Source of the DNA: Desulfobacter postgatei 2ac9
Lineage (GTDB): Bacteria; Desulfobacterota; Desulfobacteria; Desulfobacterales; Desulfobacteraceae
Direction of reading: 5' to 3'
Length of the DNA stretch: 64,000 bases
Assembly (NCBI RefSeq): GCF_000233695.2
Contig: NZ_CM001488.1
Location: 2,168,403-2,232,402, forward strand
Of the stretch, positions 14,000 to 42,341 are shown piece after piece (position 1 is the stretch's first letter; every line of letters starts with the position of its first letter). The translations under genes were made by a program, and so were the position numbers. Under the pieces are notes generated by a model. The model made no database searches. It saw only the letters and a list, made by a program, of their open reading frames with translations, and was not told the DNA's origin.

Positions 14000-14812
14000 A
14001 TGATGAAAAAATTGCTTACACTGCTGTTATTATACGGAGCATTGGTATTTGTTTTGACTGGCGTTTGTTTTGGAGCTGACTATGTATATAACTTTACGCC
14101 TTGGGATAATGATCTAGACGATCTTGATCATTCCGCAGCTTATTCTTGGGAAATTAATATGACTGGTGCGGTTGATAGCACTAATGCGGTGAGCTACAAA
14201 CCGGATCAGGTTATAACAAGCATGGTCCTGACTTTTGACGATATCTATGATAATAGTAACGATTATAATAATAAAATATATTTATCTGTTCTGGTTTCTG
14301 CAGGGGAAGAGGGCGGAAAGATTAAGGATTGGGATGGACTAGGTTCGTATGAAGAAGACAGGTTTATCCGAAATGGTGATGTTGATTACTACCATGATAA
14401 CCGGAGCGGTTATGTTAATTATTTTACAAATGATCTCAATAATGGAGCTGTAAGCCAGCTGAACGTAATCGAGAATGTCGTAACCCAAAAAACCAAAAGA
14501 AATGACATTGATGTTACTTTTACACCTGGTGTAAACGATACGAGCGGTACGGTAACCATCGTAGATAAGGCGGCATCGACGACAACTACTGTTTCATCCT
14601 CTGGGGTTAAGGATTTGTTTGAATGGGCCAGGGACGGTGTATTTGAGCTTGGTTTTGATCCGGACTGTCACTTTTACAATCGCGGTATCAGTCTGATGGT
14701 ATATACCAGCGAATCGACGGGCGCCAGCCATGCTCCTGAACCCGAAACCTTGGTTCTCTTTGGCCTTGGCCTTCTGGGCGCCAGTGCTTTTGGAAGAAAA
14801 CGATTCAGTTAA
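14000..14812 (+). CDS. PEP-CTERM sorting-domain protein
   Basis: A 270-residue exported protein. The N-terminus is a Sec signal peptide (two ATGs, then KKLLTLLLLYGALVFV, with cleavage near CFGA). The C-terminus is a textbook PEP-CTERM: a PEPETLVLF motif, a hydrophobic helix, and basic RKRFS. Such proteins are processed by an exosortase at the PEP motif and usually end in the biofilm matrix. The central ~200 residues are Asp/Asn/Tyr-rich, low in cysteine, and look like a beta-rich surface domain that I cannot name. A GGAG site six bases before the first ATG fixes the start. A strong terminator follows. Confidence 0.92.
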   Translation: MMKKLLTLLLLYGALVFVLTGVCFGADYVYNFTPWDNDLDDLDHSAAYSWEINMTGAVDSTNAVSYKPDQVITSMVLTFDDIYDNSNDYNNKIYLSVLVSAGEEGGKIKDWDGLGSYEEDRFIRNGDVDYYHDNRSGYVNYFTNDLNNGAVSQLNVIENVVTQKTKRNDIDVTFTPGVNDTSGTVTIVDKAASTTTTVSSSGVKDLFEWARDGVFELGFDPDCHFYNRGISLMVYTSESTGASHAPEPETLVLFGLGLLGASAFGRKRFS

Positions 14813-30519: not shown

Positions 30520-30568
30520 ATTGATAATAAGTACATAACATGCTGGAGATCAGCATGGAGAGGAGTTG

Positions 30569-31096
30569 ATGAACGACCAGATTGCGGAAAATATGAAAGG
30601 AAAATTCATCATGGCCATTCCCGGCCTTCCGGATCCCAATTTTGCACAGACGGTCACCTGTATTTGTGAGCACAATGAATCCGGTGCCCTTGGCTTTATT
30701 CTCAATAAAGTTCACCCGTTACTTACCGGCCGGGAGCTTTTTGAGGATTTAGGCATTCCCTGCAATGAGAGTATTGATAAAATAGATATTTTTCTTGGGG
30801 GACCCGTCCAGCCTTCGGGCGTATTTGTACTTCATTGCGGACCGTTTCAGTGGAGTGAAACCCTTAAAATTACAGACTGGCTGGCTTTGAGCAATTCCCG
30901 GGACATTCTGGAAGCCATTGCCATGGGGCAGGGACCTGACACCTTTATCATACTTCTGGGCTGCGCCGGGTGGGGCCCCATGCAGTTAGACAATGAACTT
31001 GCCGATTCAGCCTGGCTCACCTGTGATATGTCCAGGGAAATCATGTTTGATACCAAACCGGATCTGAAATATGAAAAAACCATGATGCTGATCTGA
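30569..31096 (+). CDS. algH: YqgE/AlgH family protein
   Basis: A 175-residue protein of the UPF0301 family. The family pattern is clear: FIMAIPGLPDPNFAQTV at the N-terminus, GALGFILNK, FLGGPVQPSGVFVLH, and LLGCAGWGPMQLDNEL. Its molecular function is not established; it was first linked to alginate gene regulation in Pseudomonas. ATG 30569 sits behind an AGGAG; an in-frame TTG is three bases earlier. It is the first gene of the plus-strand cluster ending at 38378, 11 bases before the dynamin-like gene. Confidence 0.93.
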   Translation: MNDQIAENMKGKFIMAIPGLPDPNFAQTVTCICEHNESGALGFILNKVHPLLTGRELFEDLGIPCNESIDKIDIFLGGPVQPSGVFVLHCGPFQWSETLKITDWLALSNSRDILEAIAMGQGPDTFIILLGCAGWGPMQLDNELADSAWLTCDMSREIMFDTKPDLKYEKTMMLI

Positions 31097-31107
31097 TTTG
31101 CCGGCCA

Positions 31108-33348
31108 ATGACTTTACACCCCCAAGAATCCATAGAAAATTTAGTTTCTGATACCCTCTCGGTGATCGACAGTCTGGCTGCCGTTTCAAACAATTGCGAC
31201 AAAAGCCTTGTTGAGAGCAGACAACTTTGCAGTAAAATTCCTTCATACATCAGTGAAGATATTTTGCGTGTGGCCGTGGTCGGGGTGATCAAATCAGGCA
31301 AAAGCACCTTTATCAACGCGATGTCGGGCAGAGAGTTGGTTCAGCGCGGGGCAGGGGTGGTCACATCCATTACTACCCGTATCAGGAAGGGCAAAAAAAA
31401 CAGGGCAATTATCCATCTTAAATCATGGGATGAGATCAATAGTGAAATTGAAAGCTGTCTGGAAATGTTTCCCGACAAGGACGATTCCCCGCCTTTTGAT
31501 ATCCGGCGGACCCAAGACCGGCAGCAGTTGCGCCGTATTTTTGACACCATTGTATCTGCATTCCCGATTACATCCCAAGGAGTTCGTCCTGAAGCATTGC
31601 TAATCCGCAATGCGCTTGACGGATATAAACATTGTCTGGACGTCATAGGTTCTGATGAACAGATGATCAGTTTTGACGCCAAATCTTTTGACGGTCACAA
31701 ACCGTTCACGGCGGACCCGGCCAAGGCTTTTTATGTTAAAGACGTGTGCCTGGAAGTGTATGGGAAAACCATTCATTCGAACGTTGAAATTGCCGATTGC
31801 CAGGGTGCCGATTCCACTGACCCTGCCGTCCTCGAAAACATATTTTCCTATCTTGAGGCTGCCAATCTGATTGTTTACTGCATCTCGTCACGTACGGGGC
31901 TTCGTCAGTCTGACATGTTATTTTTAAAAAGGATAAAACGTCTTGGGCTGATGGAAAACATTCTTTTCATTTTCAACTGTGATTTAAGTGAACATGAGAA
32001 TTTAAGCAATCTGAAAACAACACTGGATAAAACAATCCAGGAACTTAAGCTTTTGGTTCCGGATGTCAGGATTTTTTCTTTTTCAGCTCTGTATACGCTT
32101 TTTGATGCCCTTGGCAACAGACTTTCATCCAAAAACAAGAAGCGCCTTGCGCTCTGGCAGGAGGACAAGGAGATGATCGCTTTTTGTACCAAAGAGTATA
32201 CCCGATTTCTTGCCGGATTTAATCTGCTGTTTGAAACCTCCCGGTTCAATCTGTTCTATGCCAATCACATCGAGCGACTTAAAATTGTAACCCATGTTCT
32301 TGACGAAAAAATAAAAATTCTTTTTGATCTCTTTTCTGCCGGGCTTTTAGATCAGGAAAAAGCCAGAAAGCGTCTTGCCGATCTTGAAGGCAATGCCAGG
32401 CGTTTAAGGGTTATTGTGGATAACTCCGTTATGGGCGCAGTATCAGCGCTTCGCAGGGAAATTGAATCCAACTTAAAAAATGCATTCCTCAAAGACAGTG
32501 AAAATATCAATAAACTTGTAACAGAATTTATCCGGCAGGCCCAAATTGATCCCCAGTCCTACAAGACAGCGTTGAAGGAAACCGGTTTTAAACAGATTCT
32601 GTACATGATGTTCCAGGACTTCAAGCGAGAGCTTGATCTTTTTATCCTTGAACAGGTAACCCCGGAACTTAAACAACTGGTGCGTATTCAGGAGGAACGT
32701 ATAGAGTCCTATTTTAAATCTCTTCTGGATTCCTACCGCATTGACTATGTCACCGGTGCCCCGGTGGACCGCGAGAACGAGCGCATTTCCCTTGAGATGA
32801 TTAAAGAAGATGAAGAATATTCCAAGGCGGCTGACCTTGAAAGCATAAAAAAAATTTTAGGGGTGCATTTGCCGGACCATATTTTTTCGCCTGAATATAC
32901 CAGGGCGGTACAGGCCAATATCGTGACCGATTTCAGTCTTCATTCATTGGTTTTATTTGTATCCGCGTTACTGGACAAACATGTTCGATTCTCCTTTACA
33001 CCCGGACTTGACAAGGCTGCCGGAAAAATTAAGAAAAAAACACTTACCATCATGCAGCGGCAGCTAAAAGCCTACCACCGCAGCTTGAAACAGGATTATT
33101 TTTTCCCATTAATAGACGCAGCAACACGGGATTTTAAAGACAAAATTATTCACCGTTTTACCATGTATGAAACCTTGAATAAGGATATGGATGCAATTTT
33201 CTGCCTTAAACAGGAGGAAAAAAACCAGCATCTTGCCATGATAAAAAAAGCGAAAAGCGATATTGTCCGGATACGTGCGCTTCTTGATGAATTCAGCATG
33301 GATTTCAGGTCGGGCTCATTTGAGTGTGCCGTAGAAACCTCTCTTTAG
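31108..33348 (+). CDS. Dynamin-like GTPase
   Basis: A 746-residue large GTPase of the bacterial dynamin-like type, expected to bind and remodel membranes. The P-loop VVGVIKSGKSTFINAMSG is at ~57-74, a switch threonine follows at ~89 in VVTSITTRI, the DxxG motif appears as DCQGAD near 230, and FNCD near 290 replaces the canonical NKxD. The C-terminal ~450 residues are helical with long charged stretches, as in stalk regions. There is a hydrophobic SLHSLVLFVSALL near 613-625 that could be the membrane contact. No strong ribosome site is seen, and the start is 11 bases after algH. Partner dynamins are often encoded in pairs, but only one is here. Confidence 0.85.
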   Translation: MTLHPQESIENLVSDTLSVIDSLAAVSNNCDKSLVESRQLCSKIPSYISEDILRVAVVGVIKSGKSTFINAMSGRELVQRGAGVVTSITTRIRKGKKNRAIIHLKSWDEINSEIESCLEMFPDKDDSPPFDIRRTQDRQQLRRIFDTIVSAFPITSQGVRPEALLIRNALDGYKHCLDVIGSDEQMISFDAKSFDGHKPFTADPAKAFYVKDVCLEVYGKTIHSNVEIADCQGADSTDPAVLENIFSYLEAANLIVYCISSRTGLRQSDMLFLKRIKRLGLMENILFIFNCDLSEHENLSNLKTTLDKTIQELKLLVPDVRIFSFSALYTLFDALGNRLSSKNKKRLALWQEDKEMIAFCTKEYTRFLAGFNLLFETSRFNLFYANHIERLKIVTHVLDEKIKILFDLFSAGLLDQEKARKRLADLEGNARRLRVIVDNSVMGAVSALRREIESNLKNAFLKDSENINKLVTEFIRQAQIDPQSYKTALKETGFKQILYMMFQDFKRELDLFILEQVTPELKQLVRIQEERIESYFKSLLDSYRIDYVTGAPVDRENERISLEMIKEDEEYSKAADLESIKKILGVHLPDHIFSPEYTRAVQANIVTDFSLHSLVLFVSALLDKHVRFSFTPGLDKAAGKIKKKTLTIMQRQLKAYHRSLKQDYFFPLIDAATRDFKDKIIHRFTMYETLNKDMDAIFCLKQEEKNQHLAMIKKAKSDIVRIRALLDEFSMDFRSGSFECAVETSL

Positions 33349-33451
33349 CAGACACGGACTCCAATCTATTATAGTTCCTTTTATTCCGATAGCTTTTATT
33401 GGTATGATAAGACATTCATAATTTACGAAAAGCATGCAACACAAGGATGCC

Positions 33452-34282
33452 ATGGGCCTTTTAAATAAAATTGTGTCAGGCGGACAGACAGGGGCGGACC
33501 GTGCGGCTTTGGATGTCGCCATAAAATTCAATATTCCCCATGGCGGATGGATTGCCAAAGGCAGGAGAACGGAATCCGGACCGTTGCCCGATTTTTACAA
33601 TCTAAAAGAGATGGCGACCAGGGATTACCCTGCCAGAACCCGACAAAATATACTTGATTCCGACGGCACGGTTATCATTGCCAGGGGCTCTTTAACCGGC
33701 GGTTCAGCCCTGACTTATGCGTTGGCACAGAAAATATGCAAATGGGTCTGCAGAATAAATCTGCTGGAACAGGACATTTTTGAGGCGGCATTGATTCTTT
33801 ACGATTTTATTATCGACCAAGGCATCCGGGTACTTAATGTCGCAGGCCCAAGGGCCGGCCATGATCCTGATATTTATTACGATGTTAAAGTTATTTTGAC
33901 AGCGGTACTGTATCTGGATTTCCTTGAGACTGAAGAAGACTCATGGCCGGTGGACCAAATGATTGATGCAAGGTTTGATTTTCCGACATCTTTCGATAGT
34001 GTAAAACAGGTCACACAGGCTCTTGAACAAAGCTTGACGCTTAGGGGCAAGACCCTGATCGCCAGGAGCCAAGCACATCAGATGGTCGGCATTTACTTTG
34101 CCCTTCTTGAATATGTGCAGTTGTCCCTTGACCTGGATGAGAAAAATTCAGGTCTGTTCAAGCATCTTGCCAAAGGAAGAACCCTTAAAGAATATACGCC
34201 TGAAGATGCGGTGATGGATCTTTTAAAAAAACTTAAAACCAGATTGTCCAAAAATTTTCAGCTCAGGGTGGTGTCTTCATGA
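33452..34282 (+). CDS. Putative molybdenum-carrier (LOG/YpsA-like fold) protein with C-terminal extension
   Basis: A 276-residue protein. The first ~150 residues match the putative molybdenum carrier family: VSGGQTGADRAALDVAIKF at the start, GGWIAKGRRTESGPLP, SDGTVIIARGSLTGGSALT, and VLNVAGPRAG. This fold is related to LOG and Moco carrier proteins. The last ~120 residues are a helical domain that I do not recognise. The start at 33452 follows AAGGA at the right distance and gives the natural N-terminus; ATG 33434 is also in frame. It overlaps the rhomboid gene by four bases, so they are co-translated. Confidence 0.78.
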   Translation: MGLLNKIVSGGQTGADRAALDVAIKFNIPHGGWIAKGRRTESGPLPDFYNLKEMATRDYPARTRQNILDSDGTVIIARGSLTGGSALTYALAQKICKWVCRINLLEQDIFEAALILYDFIIDQGIRVLNVAGPRAGHDPDIYYDVKVILTAVLYLDFLETEEDSWPVDQMIDARFDFPTSFDSVKQVTQALEQSLTLRGKTLIARSQAHQMVGIYFALLEYVQLSLDLDEKNSGLFKHLAKGRTLKEYTPEDAVMDLLKKLKTRLSKNFQLRVVSS

Positions 34283-35256
34283 TCCCGTTAAGAGACGAAC
34301 AGGAAACAGCATCCTGTGCAGTGGCGACCTGTACCATTATTTTCATTTCCAGTCTGGTTTTTGTCTGGCAGATGATCACAGGAATTAATGATCAGGCAGT
34401 TGCCTATACATTCGGTTTTGTCCCTGCAAAATACACCATGGCACAGATGGCAGCTTATTTTTCCCTAATGAACAAACTGTCATCACCTTTTACCTATATG
34501 TTTTTGCACGGCGGTTTCTGGCATTTTGTCGGGAATATGTGGTTTCTGTATATTTTCGGTAACAACATTGAGCAGGAGATAGGTCCGTTTCGGTTTATTG
34601 CCTTTTATCTGCTTTGCGGACTCCTTGCCGCGTTTTTCCATTTTTTGCTCAACCATTCATCTGCTGTGCCGACCATTGGTGCAAGCGGTGCGATTGCAGG
34701 GGTTATGGGGGCCTATTTTCTTCTTCATCCGCGAAATAAAATCCTCACCCTGATCCCTGTGTTTATTTTCCCTTTGTTCGTCAGCATCCCTGCATTTGTT
34801 TTTCTGGGGATCTGGTTTTTTATTCAATTCATTAACGCCACAGGGCAGGGTGCCGGTGCCGGCGTTGCCTGGTGGGCCCACATCGGCGGTTTTCTTTCGG
34901 GTATGGCCCTTATTACTCTGAACACCAAACTGCCCAAGATCGGATTCAGCAAAAGTGTTGACAGATTCACCCGGAAAAAACGCAGCCCAAGGCTTCATGT
35001 TGTCACCCCTGGTGCAGACCCGTCAGGCGGAACAGATCTTTACGGTGCCATTGTACTGACCTCCCTTGAAGCGCTCACAGGGACTAAAAAGCTTGTCACC
35101 ATCCCCTGGGGTTTTAAAAAATCCGTTTACCGGGTGGTGGTGCCTGCAGGTGTCAGGCGCGGATCATTGTTGCGGCTTAAGGGGATGGGCAAAACCATAC
35201 CAGGTATGCCCCCGGGTGATCTTTTGCTGCGTGTAGACATTAAAAATGTCATTTAA
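34279..35256 (+). CDS. Rhomboid intramembrane protease fused to a DnaJ C-terminal-like domain
   Basis: A 325-residue protein. Residues ~1-225 are a rhomboid with six or more membrane helices. The catalytic serine is in GASGAIAG (about S136) and the histidine in WWAHIGGF (about H201); the HGGFWHFVGNMWFL loop 1 region is also typical. After a basic linker, residues ~250-325 resemble the second substrate-binding domain of DnaJ: DLYGAIVLTSLEALTGTKK, then VVVPAGVRRGSLLRLKGMGK and GDLLLRVDI. Thus the soluble tail may present clients to the protease. It overlaps both neighbours (four bases upstream, 11 bases downstream). Confidence 0.87.
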   Translation: MIPLRDEQETASCAVATCTIIFISSLVFVWQMITGINDQAVAYTFGFVPAKYTMAQMAAYFSLMNKLSSPFTYMFLHGGFWHFVGNMWFLYIFGNNIEQEIGPFRFIAFYLLCGLLAAFFHFLLNHSSAVPTIGASGAIAGVMGAYFLLHPRNKILTLIPVFIFPLFVSIPAFVFLGIWFFIQFINATGQGAGAGVAWWAHIGGFLSGMALITLNTKLPKIGFSKSVDRFTRKKRSPRLHVVTPGADPSGGTDLYGAIVLTSLEALTGTKKLVTIPWGFKKSVYRVVVPAGVRRGSLLRLKGMGKTIPGMPPGDLLLRVDIKNVI

Positions 35257-37771
35257 AAAGACTTTAAAAATTTTATTGCCGACATGCCTGCTACTTGTGT
35301 TGTGTGTCCAGTCTATTATTATTTTTTTGCCAACTATTTCAAAGCATATTATCCATTCAGCCCTTGGCCCTTTGGCGGGGAACCAGCCCCTTGATTTCAC
35401 AATATCCCGTTTGGGGGTCAATGATACCCAGATCAGTGATATCTCTTTTGGTGAGGATTTGCACCTGGATACCATACGGTTTTCCTACCACATTGATACA
35501 AAAAATATTATCCGTGTTCAAAAAATCGTTATATCCGGGCTTAATGTGACGCTTCATCTGGATGAAAAAAATAGAATCCGGGTCAACGGATTTTCATTTC
35601 CCCGGGATAAGGACGTGGATAATACAGGCCGCCCTGTTTTTGATATCAGCGCCTTTGAATCATATTTTGCATATCTGCCCGAAGACATTGTTTTAAAAAA
35701 CAGTACCCTCATTATTAAGGTTGGAAAAGATCGGTTTTGCATACCAGTGACGGCAGATATTCAACTGGATCGCAAGACGCTTCTTGGGGAGATGAAAATG
35801 TCCATCCTTCCCATGAATCAAAAGATCACGCTTTGGGCCACAGCTAAATTTTTACACGGCCCCGTGCAAATGAAAATTTTCGCAGAACATCTTTATCCTG
35901 AGATGCTTTTGGCCATGGTCCCGGATGGGGATCGGATCTTGAGCAAATTTCACGGGCCTGTGGATTTTTCAATTGAAACAAAAGATTTTTCAAACTTTCA
36001 TTTTGAACTCAATAACCTTGGGCTTGAAGCGGCGCCTCGTTTAAACTTTAATTTTCCTAAAATTTCAGGTGTTTTGTCTCATGATAAAAGAGTAATGGCT
36101 CTCAAGGCAGACGGGCCCGTGCAGATCATAAGTCCTGGAATTGATTTGGGTCCGTTCAGATTTGAAATTTTTTCCCAAATGGCATCCGGTACAATTGATC
36201 AATTCTCTTTGACGTTTCAAAATGAAGTCACCAAGACCTGGGGCCTTACACCTAAATCCATGGCATTATCTTTTTATCCGATTGATTTTACAGATCAAAT
36301 TCAACTTTTTGATCCCCACTTCAGGCTCTTTGTTTCAGGCGATTTTGAACACCAGGCCGGTCAGTTGACTTTTTCGGGGACAGGCATTAAGTCCTTTAGA
36401 AAGAATAAAGCCAAACACAAGGATGTTCTCAATATTTCCGGGGTACAGGTAAAAACCGAATTTGATGGTAATTTCTGGCGACCTGACTCTTTAAAGCATG
36501 TAAAGCTTGATGCCCTAATTGACAAAATAGACTTTCGACAAAACATCAAAGATAAAGGCATCCGGGCCCAAGGTGTTTATTTTGAACTGCCCATGACCTA
36601 TCCTTTTAGAAATATAAAAACTTTTGGTCGGGCAGGGGCAAAAAAAATTGTCCTGCATGATAAGATCGCCCCTGCTGTTTCTGCAAAGGTCGTCCAGGCA
36701 TCAGATTTTGGCATGGATATTACAGGAAAGGTGACCCGTCTCGGATTTTCGGGCCTGACCATTGATTTTTCCGCCACAGCCGGCCTTGATTCTGCTATGA
36801 GTCCTTTTGCCAAATGTCAAATTGCCACTGATAAATTCTCCGTTACCGAAAATACACTGATTCCCTTTATTCCCGGTATATCTCAGATGGGTGATCTTAA
36901 ATTTGACATATCTGCCAAGGCAGATTTTTCCTATATAAATCAAAATATTAATTCATCTGCCGATATACAGGTCTCCAACGGCACATTAAACTTTCTTGAA
37001 CCCGGTTTTTCGGTCTCCGGGATATCTGCCGGCATGCATTTTAATGACCTTATGGTCCCTGAAACCCTTCCAGGCCAGTATATAAATATTGACACATTTA
37101 ATGCCGGCCGCTTTAACGGTAATAATGGAAAAATAAGATTCAGCCTTGAAGATGGAAAATCCATTAATATTGAAAATTTTAAATTTAACTGGTGCAATGG
37201 GATTGTCTCAACAGAAGCGTTCAGACTGCCGTCAGAGGATAACGCCATCCATTTAACCTTATATTGTGACCGGCTTGAGATGGAAGACCTATTTCATCAG
37301 CTTGGCGCCTTTGATGCAGAAGGGGGTGGTACCTTAAGCGGGCGTATTCCGGTGGTTATGAAAAAAAATGAAATCGGTTTTGATAACGGCTTTCTTTTTT
37401 CTACACCCGGGGAGGGAGGCCGGATTTTTATCACAAATCTTGACAGGATGCTTGCCGGAGTTCCAAAGAATACGCCTGAATTCTCTCAACTTGATCTTGC
37501 AGGGGAAGCGTTAAAAAATTTTGAGTACAAGTGGGTGACGCTTAAACTGAATACCCATGAGGATACACTTGCCGTAAACATGGAGCTTGATGGAAAGCCT
37601 CTATCTGTTTTACCCTTTGAATATGATCGAAACCTGAATTCCTTTGTTCGCCGTAATGGACAAAGCCCTGGATCAAATTTTCAGGGAATCAAACTCGATG
37701 TTAATTTAAGCCTGCCATTTAACCAGGTTATTCAATTTGGCAGTAACTTGAAGCGGATTATGAACCCTTAA
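35246..37771 (+). CDS. ydbH: YdbH-like AsmA-family intermembrane transport protein
   Basis: An 841-residue protein with one N-terminal membrane anchor (~9-32) and a long beta-rich periplasmic body with alternating hydrophobic repeats, as in AsmA-like lipid bridges. Identification rests on length, the C-terminal FSTPGEGGRIFITN and LNLSLPFNQVIQFG, and above all the following ynbE and ydbL genes. In E. coli these three form an intermembrane bridge that moves phospholipid to the outer membrane and is partly redundant with TamB and YhdP. It begins inside the rhomboid gene (11-base overlap). Confidence 0.85.
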   Translation: MSFKKTLKILLPTCLLLVLCVQSIIIFLPTISKHIIHSALGPLAGNQPLDFTISRLGVNDTQISDISFGEDLHLDTIRFSYHIDTKNIIRVQKIVISGLNVTLHLDEKNRIRVNGFSFPRDKDVDNTGRPVFDISAFESYFAYLPEDIVLKNSTLIIKVGKDRFCIPVTADIQLDRKTLLGEMKMSILPMNQKITLWATAKFLHGPVQMKIFAEHLYPEMLLAMVPDGDRILSKFHGPVDFSIETKDFSNFHFELNNLGLEAAPRLNFNFPKISGVLSHDKRVMALKADGPVQIISPGIDLGPFRFEIFSQMASGTIDQFSLTFQNEVTKTWGLTPKSMALSFYPIDFTDQIQLFDPHFRLFVSGDFEHQAGQLTFSGTGIKSFRKNKAKHKDVLNISGVQVKTEFDGNFWRPDSLKHVKLDALIDKIDFRQNIKDKGIRAQGVYFELPMTYPFRNIKTFGRAGAKKIVLHDKIAPAVSAKVVQASDFGMDITGKVTRLGFSGLTIDFSATAGLDSAMSPFAKCQIATDKFSVTENTLIPFIPGISQMGDLKFDISAKADFSYINQNINSSADIQVSNGTLNFLEPGFSVSGISAGMHFNDLMVPETLPGQYINIDTFNAGRFNGNNGKIRFSLEDGKSINIENFKFNWCNGIVSTEAFRLPSEDNAIHLTLYCDRLEMEDLFHQLGAFDAEGGGTLSGRIPVVMKKNEIGFDNGFLFSTPGEGGRIFITNLDRMLAGVPKNTPEFSQLDLAGEALKNFEYKWVTLKLNTHEDTLAVNMELDGKPLSVLPFEYDRNLNSFVRRNGQSPGSNFQGIKLDVNLSLPFNQVIQFGSNLKRIMNP

Positions 37772-37785
37772 AAAGTGAGGTTGTC

Positions 37786-38013
37786 ATGCTAAAACGATGT
37801 GGGTTGGTGGTTGTCAGTATTATTTTTCCGGCATTGGTCGGCTGCAGCACCAGTCACGAAATTGAAGTCAAACCGGTTGAAATTAAACCCATCCATATTA
37901 CGATTGATGTAAATGTCAAGGTTGACAAGGCCTTGGATGATTTCTTCGGTGATATTGATGCGGCCCAGGAAAAGCTTGAAAATAATCAGCCTAAAACAGG
38001 AGGAACTGAATAA
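37786..38013 (+). CDS. ynbE: YnbE-like lipoprotein
   Basis: A 75-residue lipoprotein with signal and lipobox (ALVGCSTSH, Cys near residue 20). The mature part has the family sequence KPIHITIDVNVKVDKALDDF. In E. coli YnbE multimers in the outer membrane stack as beta-strands onto the end of YdbH. A GAGG site precedes the start. Its stop overlaps the ydbL ATG (TAATG). Confidence 0.88.
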   Translation: MLKRCGLVVVSIIFPALVGCSTSHEIEVKPVEIKPIHITIDVNVKVDKALDDFFGDIDAAQEKLENNQPKTGGTE

Positions 38014-38378
38014 TGAAATCCATTAAATTTTTGCTTGCCATGACCATTGCCCTCTCTTTTGTCTTCGGCACTATGGCGTTTGCCGATAGTATTAAAGAAC
38101 GCATGACACAACGGCTCCCACAGATTGTCGATTTAAAAAATAGAGGCATTGTTGGCGAAACAAATACCGGTTATCTTGAATTTGTCACCGCCCAAAAAGA
38201 AAAACAAGACGTGGTGGCAGCCGAAAACCAGGATCGCAAAACCATTTACATCCAGATTGCAAAACAGCAGAATGTCTCGATCCAGCTTGTTCAGAAAAGA
38301 AGGGCAGCCACCCTGTTTTCGAACGGCACAGAAGGCCACTATTACCAGAACGAGGCTGGTGCCTGGATTAGGAAATAA
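38013..38378 (+). CDS. ydbL: YdbL-like periplasmic protein (DUF1318)
   Basis: A 121-residue exported protein with a Sec signal ending near AFA and a DUF1318 body (IVDLKNRGIVGETNTGYLEF, then IAKQQNVSIQLVQKRRA). In E. coli YdbL controls YnbE polymerisation. AGGAGG in the end of ynbE serves as its ribosome site. It closes the cluster, which ends at a strong terminator. Confidence 0.9.
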   Translation: MKSIKFLLAMTIALSFVFGTMAFADSIKERMTQRLPQIVDLKNRGIVGETNTGYLEFVTAQKEKQDVVAAENQDRKTIYIQIAKQQNVSIQLVQKRRAATLFSNGTEGHYYQNEAGAWIRK

Positions 38379-39011: not shown

Positions 39012-42000
39012 TTATGAATATGGTTTGTCGTCTGATTTTTCATGCAGGATAGAGGCCTTTACCTTTTTAATGCTGTCAAGATAGGTCCGGTATAAGGTCA
39101 GATAAAAGGTGAGAGGCCTGGAAAAATTTTTGCCTAGAATTCCGTCCACAAACAATCTGCTGATATGATGCTCATGACGCAGCATGTTCTGGGCCTGGAA
39201 AAATATTGCCTTTTCTTCCGGCGTCATGTCTGAAACCACATGTATTAATGAGGACTGGGCCCTGGGCAGGTACATCCAGAAATAAAACAGATCCAGGGCA
39301 TTAATGATGATCAGTGTTGCCAGATCCCGGACTTCCGAGTTTTTGTTATCCAAAAGTATGCTTGAATTTTCTAAAATATTCAATTCTTCCGTTTCAGGAA
39401 ACAGCATGATGAGTTGGGAGTAAATATGAAAAAGTTCAGAAATTTTTTTCCGGATATTTTGTTTCCTAAGTCGTGTGTAGACAGAGCGGTCTGCCGCAGC
39501 TTCAATAAATCCGGCCACAACATCAGATGCTCCTTTTGAAATGATAGCCGCCCATTTTTGAAGAATCCCGTTAACATTTGGAATATTGAAAGACCCTAAA
39601 ATAGTTCCTGTTAGTGCACTGAGCACGACGGCAACCGGAATGGAAAGGATGCTCCTGAAAAAATTGCCGGTCACGGCTCCTTTGGGCAGTCCCCTGAAAA
39701 AATTATGGCTGGAAAGATATATACCGTTGGCAAGACCCATGACGCTATAAAGCATCACAGGGCCGCTATTTATCGTAATGCCCAATGTTTTGTCCAAAAG
39801 GAGTGTTTTAACAAGATAATCCAGAAGGGGGACTGAGAACCCTGTAAATAGAAGGGAATCCGCAAGCCTGTCCCAACTGACGTAGTCGTTCCATTTTAAA
39901 CGTGATGCCCTTCTAATACCACCTCCGCCGAGTACCGACTGTATCACATTTCTTATGCCCGTTATTCCGAACCACATCAAGGCACCAAAATAGGCCAGAA
40001 GCCACCACTCTTTGGTCAGCATGAAGCAAAGCTGGGCCGGAATAAATCCTACAATGACCTTGAAAAAATTTTTAAGCGGGGTGTTCAGGTATTTAAAAGA
40101 TTTTTTTGATTTTGATTTTTGATCGGATGTTGTAACAAAATTATTTTTTTGTCCCATCAAAGCTGATCGTCCAAGGGTCACCAGATTACCTTTGGAACCG
40201 GCGTCAAGCAGGTAAAATTCGGGTATCCACGACCTTTTTATCGTGGAAAATAGCCTGTGTATACCAGGTATCCAGGCAATAGTATCGGAAAGAGATTCAG
40301 GAGGGGATGTGGTGGTGCACAGGTTGGTTTTGACATTAACAGGAAGGCGCAGTCTGCCGCCGTTTTCTTTTCTGATTTTTTTCCGAACCCTGAAGGGCAG
40401 GGTATCAAGAACCGCAAACCCCATGCCGTAATGCCCCGGCTTACCTGTAGAGTCGGACCCGATTCTTAACTTGATGGGACGGACATCAAACATATGCTTG
40501 AATTCGTTAATGTCGTTGAGGATCATAGACAGGTTGTTCAGCCGGTCTTGCTTCTGATGGAGATCATGTTTTTGGACATCTGCAATAATTTTTGAAATAA
40601 TGCGCTTTAATTTTAATATACTCCCCTGATTGACCGCTTCTTTCAGTTCATTGACGCGCAGCATGACTTCATTGTCCAGGGGATTGTATTTTTTTAGATT
40701 GATAATTTCAATTCTATTGATCCTGCCGTAGCTTTCATATAAAAGTTCAAGCACATCTTCAGGCCCAAGCCTGTCAAGATTGAGGGTAATTCGGAAATCG
40801 TCAAGAAGTTCTTCAACTTGGTCCAAAAGTGTGCAAAAGCTTACACAAAGCCTTGGGGGGGCAGAATCTCCTTTTTCTTTAACATAATCGTAAAGCCCGC
40901 TGAAAAAGTTTGCGCCATCAAGGTATTGTTCAAGAATGTCACTGACCATGAAATCATTCATTGTTTTGGACAGACGGTCAAGGTGCGTTTCGGCCTGCGG
41001 AGTGGTTTCTCTCTCTTTTAATCGGGAAATCTCTATTTGAATGGCCTTAATGACTTTTGAGTGGATGAATTCGCCAAGGTATTGAAAGCTTGGCTGACCA
41101 GGTCCGACAAAATCGAGAAATTCTTCAGCCACAACAGGCGTCATGGTGATATCAAGATCCCGGCACAATTCCATACGTCCTGACGCATTAAATTCGTCCA
41201 ACAAGCGATAGAGATATTTTTCCTGGAACTTTTCAAGGGCTTTCCCTTGTTCCATGAACTGAATCACTGATGGTCGGGCAAGAAAGCTCAAAAAGGATTC
41301 AAGGTTAGGCAGCCCCCGGGAGACCCAGATAAGAGAGATATATCTGTCCCGGTGAAGGGGCCAGAATTCAATACCGATTCTCAAATCAATTTCCATGATC
41401 CTGGCCGCTTCAATCAGCTCCAATGCGCATTTGGGTTCAATATAGTGATAGTATATCACACGCAGGCTTCGAATGCCTTTGATCCAGGCATCCATGATCA
41501 GGTGTGTGGCACTTTTTCTGCCCGAGGTGTTTGCATCATGGACATGGTCATCAAAGGTGATCTGATTCCACTCTTCGGGCATTTCAAGCAGATGGTAGTG
41601 GTCAAGCAGATGTCGGATAGCCCTGGGTTTGCCAAATGCGGCAATTCTGAAATCGTGGGCCAGTTTAAGCTGATGTTCAGGTTCTCCCTTTGCCCGAACC
41701 AGGTCTTTCATAATCTGCAGCAATACCCTGGACGTATTTTTGGGCATGGGACCGCCAACGGTGTCCACAAGATCGTCCTTAAGGCCTGCCAAGGCTTTAA
41801 GGCGTCGTGTGATATCACCGCTTTCAATGGATTCCATGAGGTTGACAATGGAATATGCAGCGCGAAGGCCTCTGGATTCTGCAAGTTCTTTTATCCCTAA
41901 AGGGTGAAAATAAGGATATAGCAGTTTGCCTGTGTACCCGAGCGTTTTGGGTTCGTTATACACCGAGGTTACAATCTCAATGAGTTTGTAATCCCGCCGG

Positions 42001-42032
42001 TCAAAAAAGATAGAATTAATGGCCTTCCACAT
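39012..42032 (-). CDS. Large membrane protein with N-terminal PHP-like domain (1006 aa)
   Basis: No named family comes to mind for the whole protein. Residues ~160-290 resemble a PHP (polymerase/histidinol phosphatase) domain: FDDHVHDANTSGRK (HxH), AWIKGIRSLRVIYYHY where ITDHD would be expected, then AARIMEIDLRIGIEF with the Glu. A long helical part (~290-600) follows. Four hydrophobic segments at ~665-820 are integral membrane helices, and the C-terminal ~180 residues are again helical. PHP domains are metal-dependent phosphoesterases, so a membrane-tethered phosphoesterase is the reading, unproven. AAGGCGG eight bases before ATG 42032 fixes the start; a TTG directly upstream is less likely. 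Confidence 0.72.
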   Translation of the reverse strand: MWKAINSIFFDRRDYKLIEIVTSVYNEPKTLGYTGKLLYPYFHPLGIKELAESRGLRAAYSIVNLMESIESGDITRRLKALAGLKDDLVDTVGGPMPKNTSRVLLQIMKDLVRAKGEPEHQLKLAHDFRIAAFGKPRAIRHLLDHYHLLEMPEEWNQITFDDHVHDANTSGRKSATHLIMDAWIKGIRSLRVIYYHYIEPKCALELIEAARIMEIDLRIGIEFWPLHRDRYISLIWVSRGLPNLESFLSFLARPSVIQFMEQGKALEKFQEKYLYRLLDEFNASGRMELCRDLDITMTPVVAEEFLDFVGPGQPSFQYLGEFIHSKVIKAIQIEISRLKERETTPQAETHLDRLSKTMNDFMVSDILEQYLDGANFFSGLYDYVKEKGDSAPPRLCVSFCTLLDQVEELLDDFRITLNLDRLGPEDVLELLYESYGRINRIEIINLKKYNPLDNEVMLRVNELKEAVNQGSILKLKRIISKIIADVQKHDLHQKQDRLNNLSMILNDINEFKHMFDVRPIKLRIGSDSTGKPGHYGMGFAVLDTLPFRVRKKIRKENGGRLRLPVNVKTNLCTTTSPPESLSDTIAWIPGIHRLFSTIKRSWIPEFYLLDAGSKGNLVTLGRSALMGQKNNFVTTSDQKSKSKKSFKYLNTPLKNFFKVIVGFIPAQLCFMLTKEWWLLAYFGALMWFGITGIRNVIQSVLGGGGIRRASRLKWNDYVSWDRLADSLLFTGFSVPLLDYLVKTLLLDKTLGITINSGPVMLYSVMGLANGIYLSSHNFFRGLPKGAVTGNFFRSILSIPVAVVLSALTGTILGSFNIPNVNGILQKWAAIISKGASDVVAGFIEAAADRSVYTRLRKQNIRKKISELFHIYSQLIMLFPETEELNILENSSILLDNKNSEVRDLATLIIINALDLFYFWMYLPRAQSSLIHVVSDMTPEEKAIFFQAQNMLRHEHHISRLFVDGILGKNFSRPLTFYLTLYRTYLDSIKKVKASILHEKSDDKPYS

Positions 42033-42341
42033 CAAAAAATCCGCCTTAATGTAAATTTACCAGTGCCCTTGCCTCTGAAAGAAAATCCATACCGGGCATG
42101 GCAGCCTGGAGCCCAAATGTACGCCCGGACACAAATGGGCATAAAACTCAACACATTTTTGAAAAAATATTTGTTTTTCAAGTTACAATTCCGGCATAAA
42201 AACTCCTTTGTTCGCTTCCATCGGCTTTTTAACGCGACAGCAAATTCCATAAAACATACAGAATGATGACGTGTCAAGGAAGAACTATGGATTTAGACTT
42301 GCAAATCCATGCGCAATAATATATTTTTCACATCATTAAAT
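42033..42341. other. 309-bp intergenic region upstream of tRNA-Leu(UAA)
   Basis: This holds the leader of the PHP-like membrane protein on the minus strand and the promoter of the tRNA gene on the plus strand. No additional gene is visible. Confidence 0.5.
42299..42327 (+). promoter_or_regulatory. Possible promoter of tRNA-Leu(UAA)
   Basis: TTGCAA, a 17-base spacer, and TATTTT, ending 14 bases before the tRNA. Each element is a partial consensus match. Confidence 0.45.

Follow-up and report, generated by a model that had tools for sequence, protein, structure and literature searches.

Bacterial rhomboids are inefficient enzymes, and how they find their substrates is an open question; recent work links rhomboids to the clearing of membrane proteins that are misfolded or orphaned. 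In bacteria, rhomboid cleavage of orphan membrane proteins licenses these for removal (PMC7232013). Escherichia coli GlpG has a six-TM core with a GxSG serine and a histidine on TM6, and its extra domain is N-terminal (PMC12615303). Bacillus subtilis YqgP, a rhomboid with accessory extramembrane domains that works with FtsH, carries an N-terminal cytosolic metal sensor and a C-terminal extracellular TPR domain; its cytosolic domain promotes cleavage, presents the substrate to FtsH and is needed for acting with FtsH (PMC7231995). The C-terminal extension of RHBDL4, a eukaryotic ER rhomboid, recognises tagged clients via a ubiquitin-binding motif (PMC12615303). Among the J-proteins, the CTDI of Sis1 receives clients and the EEVD peptide chiefly in a groove that runs between beta1 and beta2 and contains K199, F201 and I203; this is its primary client pocket (PMC11722011).

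The protein described here is encoded by Desulfobacter postgatei 2ac9 in the window, i.e., the whole stretch of 64,000 nucleotides that was analysed. As judged from sequence and structural models, it is a GlpG-type rhomboid with an intact dyad and a C-terminal single DnaJ/CbpA-type CTD. It is like GlpG in its core and unlike it in the accessory domain, which is a DnaJ CTD at the C-terminus. It resembles YqgP as a rhomboid with an extramembrane addition, but the addition is a predicted cytoplasmic C-terminal DnaJ CTD. The extension of RHBDL4 is similarly C-terminal, whereas its domain is unrelated to the DnaJ CTD and RHBDL4 belongs to the eukaryotic ubiquitin system. Rhomboids with accessory domains and DnaJ CTDs are each already known; their fusion is apparently undescribed, as no description was found in open-access PMC papers, where absence is weak evidence. 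The architecture may already stand in automatic databases, since both Pfam cut-offs are exceeded. A natural and ancient fusion of a rhomboid with a chaperone domain offers a concrete, separable recognition module, a tail of roughly 70 residues, and bears on whether a chaperone-like groove reads the folding state of clients.

Architecture of the fused protein

A preliminary description had placed a rhomboid protease with a DnaJ substrate-binding-like domain at 34279-35256. The open reading frame was found exactly there on the plus strand with all the quoted motifs in frame, and Pfam detected Rhomboid and DnaJ_C in the 325-aa product, each above its curated cut-off. The gene is composed as follows:

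34279..35256, plus strand: rhomboid-DnaJ CTD fusion protein, 325 aa, ATG start (ORF, Pfam, AF2 model, orthologues)
34279..34932, plus strand: rhomboid core, residues 1-218 (Pfam PF01694, 2e-34; AF2 model; GlpG 5f5j, Z 18.4)
Within the core, plus strand: six TM helices, residues 15-34, 80-101, 103-124, 135-149, 172-188 and 192-216 (AF2 model)
34684..34686, plus strand: predicted catalytic Ser136 (GASG), invariant
34879..34881, plus strand: predicted catalytic His201 (AWWAHIGGF), invariant
34933..35034, plus strand: basic linker, residues 219-252, with the clade-conserved motif (K/R)3-(T/S)PRLQVIRP (median net charge +6, dN/dS 0.38)
35035..35244, plus strand: DnaJ/CbpA CTD, CTD-I-like by sequence, residues 253-322 (Pfam PF01556, fold matches, dN/dS 0.106)
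35089..35103, plus strand: predicted client-site strand, residues 271-275 (K271, V273, I275), aligned to Sis1 K199/F201/I203

The Rhomboid match covers residues 69-213 (2e-34, 119 bits against a cut-off of 22.6), and both Ser136 of the GxSG motif and His201 on TM6 are invariant in 50/50 sequences, which points to a Ser-His protease dyad. The full-chain AlphaFold2 model, made from an alignment of 50 orthologues, has a mean pLDDT of 91.1 and a pTM of 0.85 and shows six membrane helices and, after them, a tail rich in beta structure; its residues 12-219 match GlpG with Z 18.4 over 172 residues, the six-TM rhomboid fold. The fused rhomboid scored below the equivalog thresholds for GlpG (TIGR04239, 30.2 bits where 250 are required) and for rhombosortase (TIGR03902, 27.5 bits where 84 are required). 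Loop L4 and the C-terminus are basic, and L3 and L5 are uncharged. With six helices, this basic C-terminal side, the positive-inside rule and the topology of GlpG, we infer that the C-terminus, together with L4, lies on the cytoplasmic side.

The DnaJ_C match (residues 260-322, 7.6e-7, 29.7 bits against a cut-off of 26.6) spans positions 7-73 of the 152-position profile, which corresponds to one of two CTDs and not to the usual pair. In the PDB the best sequence match of the tail was the CTD of Thermus thermophilus DnaJ2 (2.7e-9), which a profile of 28 tails matched at 1.5e-19, and the matches include DnaJ2 CTD structures solved fused to the client PhoA. Residues 243-323 of the full model matched the CTDs of CbpA-like and DnaJ proteins with Z up to 11.2 (1.3 Å over 73 aa), the matches overall lying at Z about 11 and 1.3-1.6 Å over 73-75 residues. 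Modelled alone, the tail adopted the beta-sandwich CTD fold and matched 3i38 with Z 11.6 and a Foldseek probability of 1.00; above Z 3.3 there were solely DnaJ-type CTDs, from J-proteins and their radial-spoke relatives, and non-DnaJ folds reached at most Z 3.3. Thus the tail neither lacks a DnaJ_C-like fold nor is an unrelated family-specific domain, and Pfam profile, predicted fold and the survey of Desulfobacterota all agree with the description of a rhomboid carrying a DnaJ substrate-binding-like domain. That wording holds for the presence of a CTD and has to be narrowed in one respect: the tail corresponds to one CTD, with CTD-I as its nearest counterpart, and not to the whole substrate-binding region of DnaJ. 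The fused protein has no Pfam match to a J-domain with its HPD motif, its N-terminus being the rhomboid, and no zinc finger, second CTD or dimerisation helix was found in it.

The tail thus shares fold and sequence with the class-B J-proteins CbpA and DnaJ2, and differs from them in the absence of these other parts and in being joined to a membrane protease. Its profile preferred CTD-I over CTD-II in 14/14 CbpA-type proteins tested, all of the same order and including those of its own genome. The tail and CbpA CTD-I have in common the hairpin length, the GxxK spacing and the pattern E264, G268, K271, P289, G291, G295, L298-R299-L300, G302, G304 and G313-D314. An origin from CTD-II was also considered, as structural Z scores were slightly higher against CTD-II segments; it is disfavoured by the sequence preference, the GxxK spacing and the hairpin length. 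In 2/10 fused proteins of the order sample, the Pfam match of the tail fell in the CTD-II half of the profile. On sequence grounds the tail is likely derived from CTD-I. Single-CTD J-proteins exist in the same order: L242 (267-aa ORF, genome G060) and L243 (266-aa ORF, genome G064) are short proteins with a J-domain and an apparently single CTD, and their second halves score 36-38 bits against the rhomboid-tail profile.

By the alignment made in the present analysis, K271, V273 and I275 are equivalent to K199, F201 and I203 of Sis1. K271 is identical in 50/50 sequences, almost every sequence has an aliphatic residue at 273 and at 275, and the site-II positions of the tail stay aliphatic or Lys, in line with the pocket that Sis1 CTDI primarily uses for clients. 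As compared to soluble CbpA CTD-I, the tail has added hydrophobic residues at 272, 277, 279 and 303 (including L272, W277 and F279) and basic residues at 281-282 and 305, with acidic-to-basic switches at 282 and 305. Position 272 is L, M or I in 47/49 tails and polar in 11/14 CbpA proteins, and a hairpin PWGF-x-K-R stands where CbpA CTD-I has a polar turn. The median net charge is about +6 in the tails and +3.5 in soluble CbpA CTD-I, in sequences that are related by descent. These extra hydrophobic and basic residues would fit a client groove that has been adapted, and also a tail that docks close to the membrane.

Distribution, origin and selection

Full-length fused orthologues occur across the order with 43-90% identity. 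In the class sample the tail was present in 132/147 genomes (~90%): 128/147 were full-length, and by hand count four more had the tail on pieces that were interrupted or cut by a contig edge. The fusion is not a chance join, because the same co-linear arrangement is repeated in about 130 genomes, closed genomes among them. About nine further families of the phylum sample also had the fusion, and most others had a tail-less orthologue of 220-270 aa. A wide scan used one genome per species (84,980 species) with TM6 plus the tail as the query, which would overlook an independent fusion onto a different rhomboid. Among the matches listed from its best 80 loci, the tailed ones came solely from Desulfobacterota (two of them labelled just as generic proteobacterial) and include Desulfosarcina widdelii, Desulfotignum, Desulfatitalea and Desulfobacterium; matches from Planctomycetota, Chloroflexota, Bacteroidota and others among these loci cover TM6 alone.

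In a tree built on the rhomboid core only, with the tail left out, all 56 fused sequences fell into one clade (100/96), joined by one tail-less member, L095 (genome G250), a 236-aa rhomboid that lies within the clade and has lost the CTD. This single clade indicates one fusion and one observed later loss of the tail. A separate clade of tail-less rhomboids (L068, L069 and L124) is also present in the order, and some genomes, such as G074, carry it together with the fused rhomboid. Median pairwise dN/dS within the genus was 0.123 in the rhomboid and 0.106 in the CTD, and rose to 0.376 in the linker. As the value of the CTD is as low as that of the rhomboid, the tail is kept as strictly as the protease, i.e., under strong purifying selection.

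Rhomboid was matched four times and DnaJ_C three times in the genome of D. postgatei, and the two domains occur together in the fused protein only. No rhomboid other than the fused protein was found in genomes G061 and G063.

Gene neighbourhood

The neighbours of the fused gene in the window are:

33434..34282, plus strand: cpYpsA/SLOG gene upstream of the rhomboid, 4-bp overlap, conserved as a neighbour within the window's family only
35246..37771, plus strand: YdbH-like gene downstream of the rhomboid, 11-bp overlap, conserved as a neighbour within the window's family only
37786..38013, plus strand: YnbE-like lipoprotein, 75 aa, named by its place in the ydbH-ynbE-ydbL order and by the general features of YnbE
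38013..38378, plus strand: YdbL-like (DUF1318) gene (Pfam)

The order ydbH-ynbE-ydbL follows the described locus (PMC8593681). The segment 35246-38378 thus holds a YdbH-YnbE-YdbL-like set in a sulphate reducer, and the E. coli counterpart is tied to outer-membrane lipid homeostasis. Upstream of the rhomboid, 30566-34282 contains an AlgH-like gene, a dynamin-family GTPase and cpYpsA (SLOG), an order found again in a large part of the family. Outside this family the fused gene often stands behind valS-nadC, and otherwise among different genes, all named here from reading their sequences, and ydbH is not directly next to it. The protein is shared while its neighbours are not conserved beyond the window's family, which suits a general role in membrane proteostasis.

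Proposed function and alternative explanations

The preliminary description had suggested a delivery step for misfolded or orphan membrane proteins, and such a step is plausible in view of the conserved pocket residues, the predicted cytoplasmic topology and the known roles of rhomboids in quality control. From sequence, models and analogy, we give about an even chance to a cytoplasmic client-capture CTD that helps the rhomboid to deal with membrane proteins that are orphaned or misfolded. The conserved groove between beta1 and beta2 of the CTD, with K271, V273 and I275, would transiently grip exposed hydrophobic or aromatic stretches in the cytoplasmic parts of such proteins, and a client held beside the rhomboid would be cleaved in the membrane with higher probability. 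Alternatively, the cut or uncut client could be kept soluble for a downstream protease, e.g., FtsH, or for DnaK. The fused protein alone should not drive the ATPase cycle of DnaK, because it has no J-domain. By analogy, recognition by the CTD on behalf of its own rhomboid would be the most economical reading. What weighs against client capture is that a single CTD is without the avidity of dimeric two-CTD J-proteins, with no dimerisation element seen, and that L272, W277, F279 and the basic residues at 281-282 and 305 could signal docking to the membrane or the protease instead.

Such docking is the basis of a reading that we consider rather unlikely but worth keeping in mind, in which the CTD would act structurally or as a regulator, docking on the membrane surface, on the cytoplasmic face of the rhomboid or on a second copy, and setting the position or activity of the protease without clients. 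The changes specific to the tail relative to CbpA CTD-I (L/M/I at 272, the PWGF-x-K-R hairpin and basic 282 and 305) would fit it, as would the full-chain pTM of 0.85, which suggests a defined domain arrangement. Net charge points the same way, with a median of +6 in the tail against +3.5 and about +6 in the linker too, but the comparison is drawn from related sequences and hence is not independent evidence; moreover, the tail agrees with client-binding J-proteins at K271, V273 and I275. The same lysine could instead serve to bring DnaK to the protease, the CTD being a docking site for the acidic C-terminal tail of DnaK as class-B CTD-I is for the EEVD of Hsp70. The DnaK of this genome ends in ...VVDADFEEVKKDK, the tail matches 3agz and 2b26, both of them CTD-EEVD complexes, and the position of K271 is that of Sis1 K199 and DNAJB1 K181, both salt-bridged to the EEVD peptide (PMC11722011). 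We regard DnaK docking as improbable, since bacterial DnaK lacks a terminal EEVD, the other basic EEVD contacts (Sis1 K202, DNAJB1 K182/K184) are L272 and T274 in the tail, and the fused protein has no J-domain.

A specific service to the adjoining YdbH-YnbE-YdbL lipid-bridge system is suggested by the gene overlaps and the conserved cpYpsA-rhomboid-YdbH order in the window's family. It was marked down to very unlikely as the neighbours differ between families, the fused gene elsewhere sitting after valS-nadC or in other places, with no ydbH directly beside it; YdbH also appears to be N-in, which we take to be the less usual orientation in rhomboid substrates, and this counts further against it. 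That the tail is carried along as a passenger, a fused piece that at present does nothing, is hardly credible: one lineage (L095) did drop it and retain the rhomboid, but its retention in 132/147 sampled genomes of the class and a CTD dN/dS of 0.106, as low as that of the catalytic domain, contradict decay.

Client capture by the CTD may be extended, more tentatively and at somewhat less than even odds, to a chaperone-guided intramembrane protease, in which an Hsp40 client groove within the same chain would sense unfolded cytoplasmic parts of membrane proteins and couple their recognition to cleavage in the membrane, as a bacterial counterpart of the client-recognition tails of eukaryotic ER rhomboids.

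Other observations

Elsewhere in the window, 39012-42035 on the minus strand is a 1007-aa ORF with a TTG start and no Pfam match at 0.001, and 14000-14812 on the plus strand encodes a protein with a C-terminal PEP-CTERM motif. In the same genome, two loci, C1:3414740-3414948 and C1:3961126-3961353, may be gene remnants: one HSP70 match is fragmentary and contains an in-frame stop, and one rhomboid match is short and partial.
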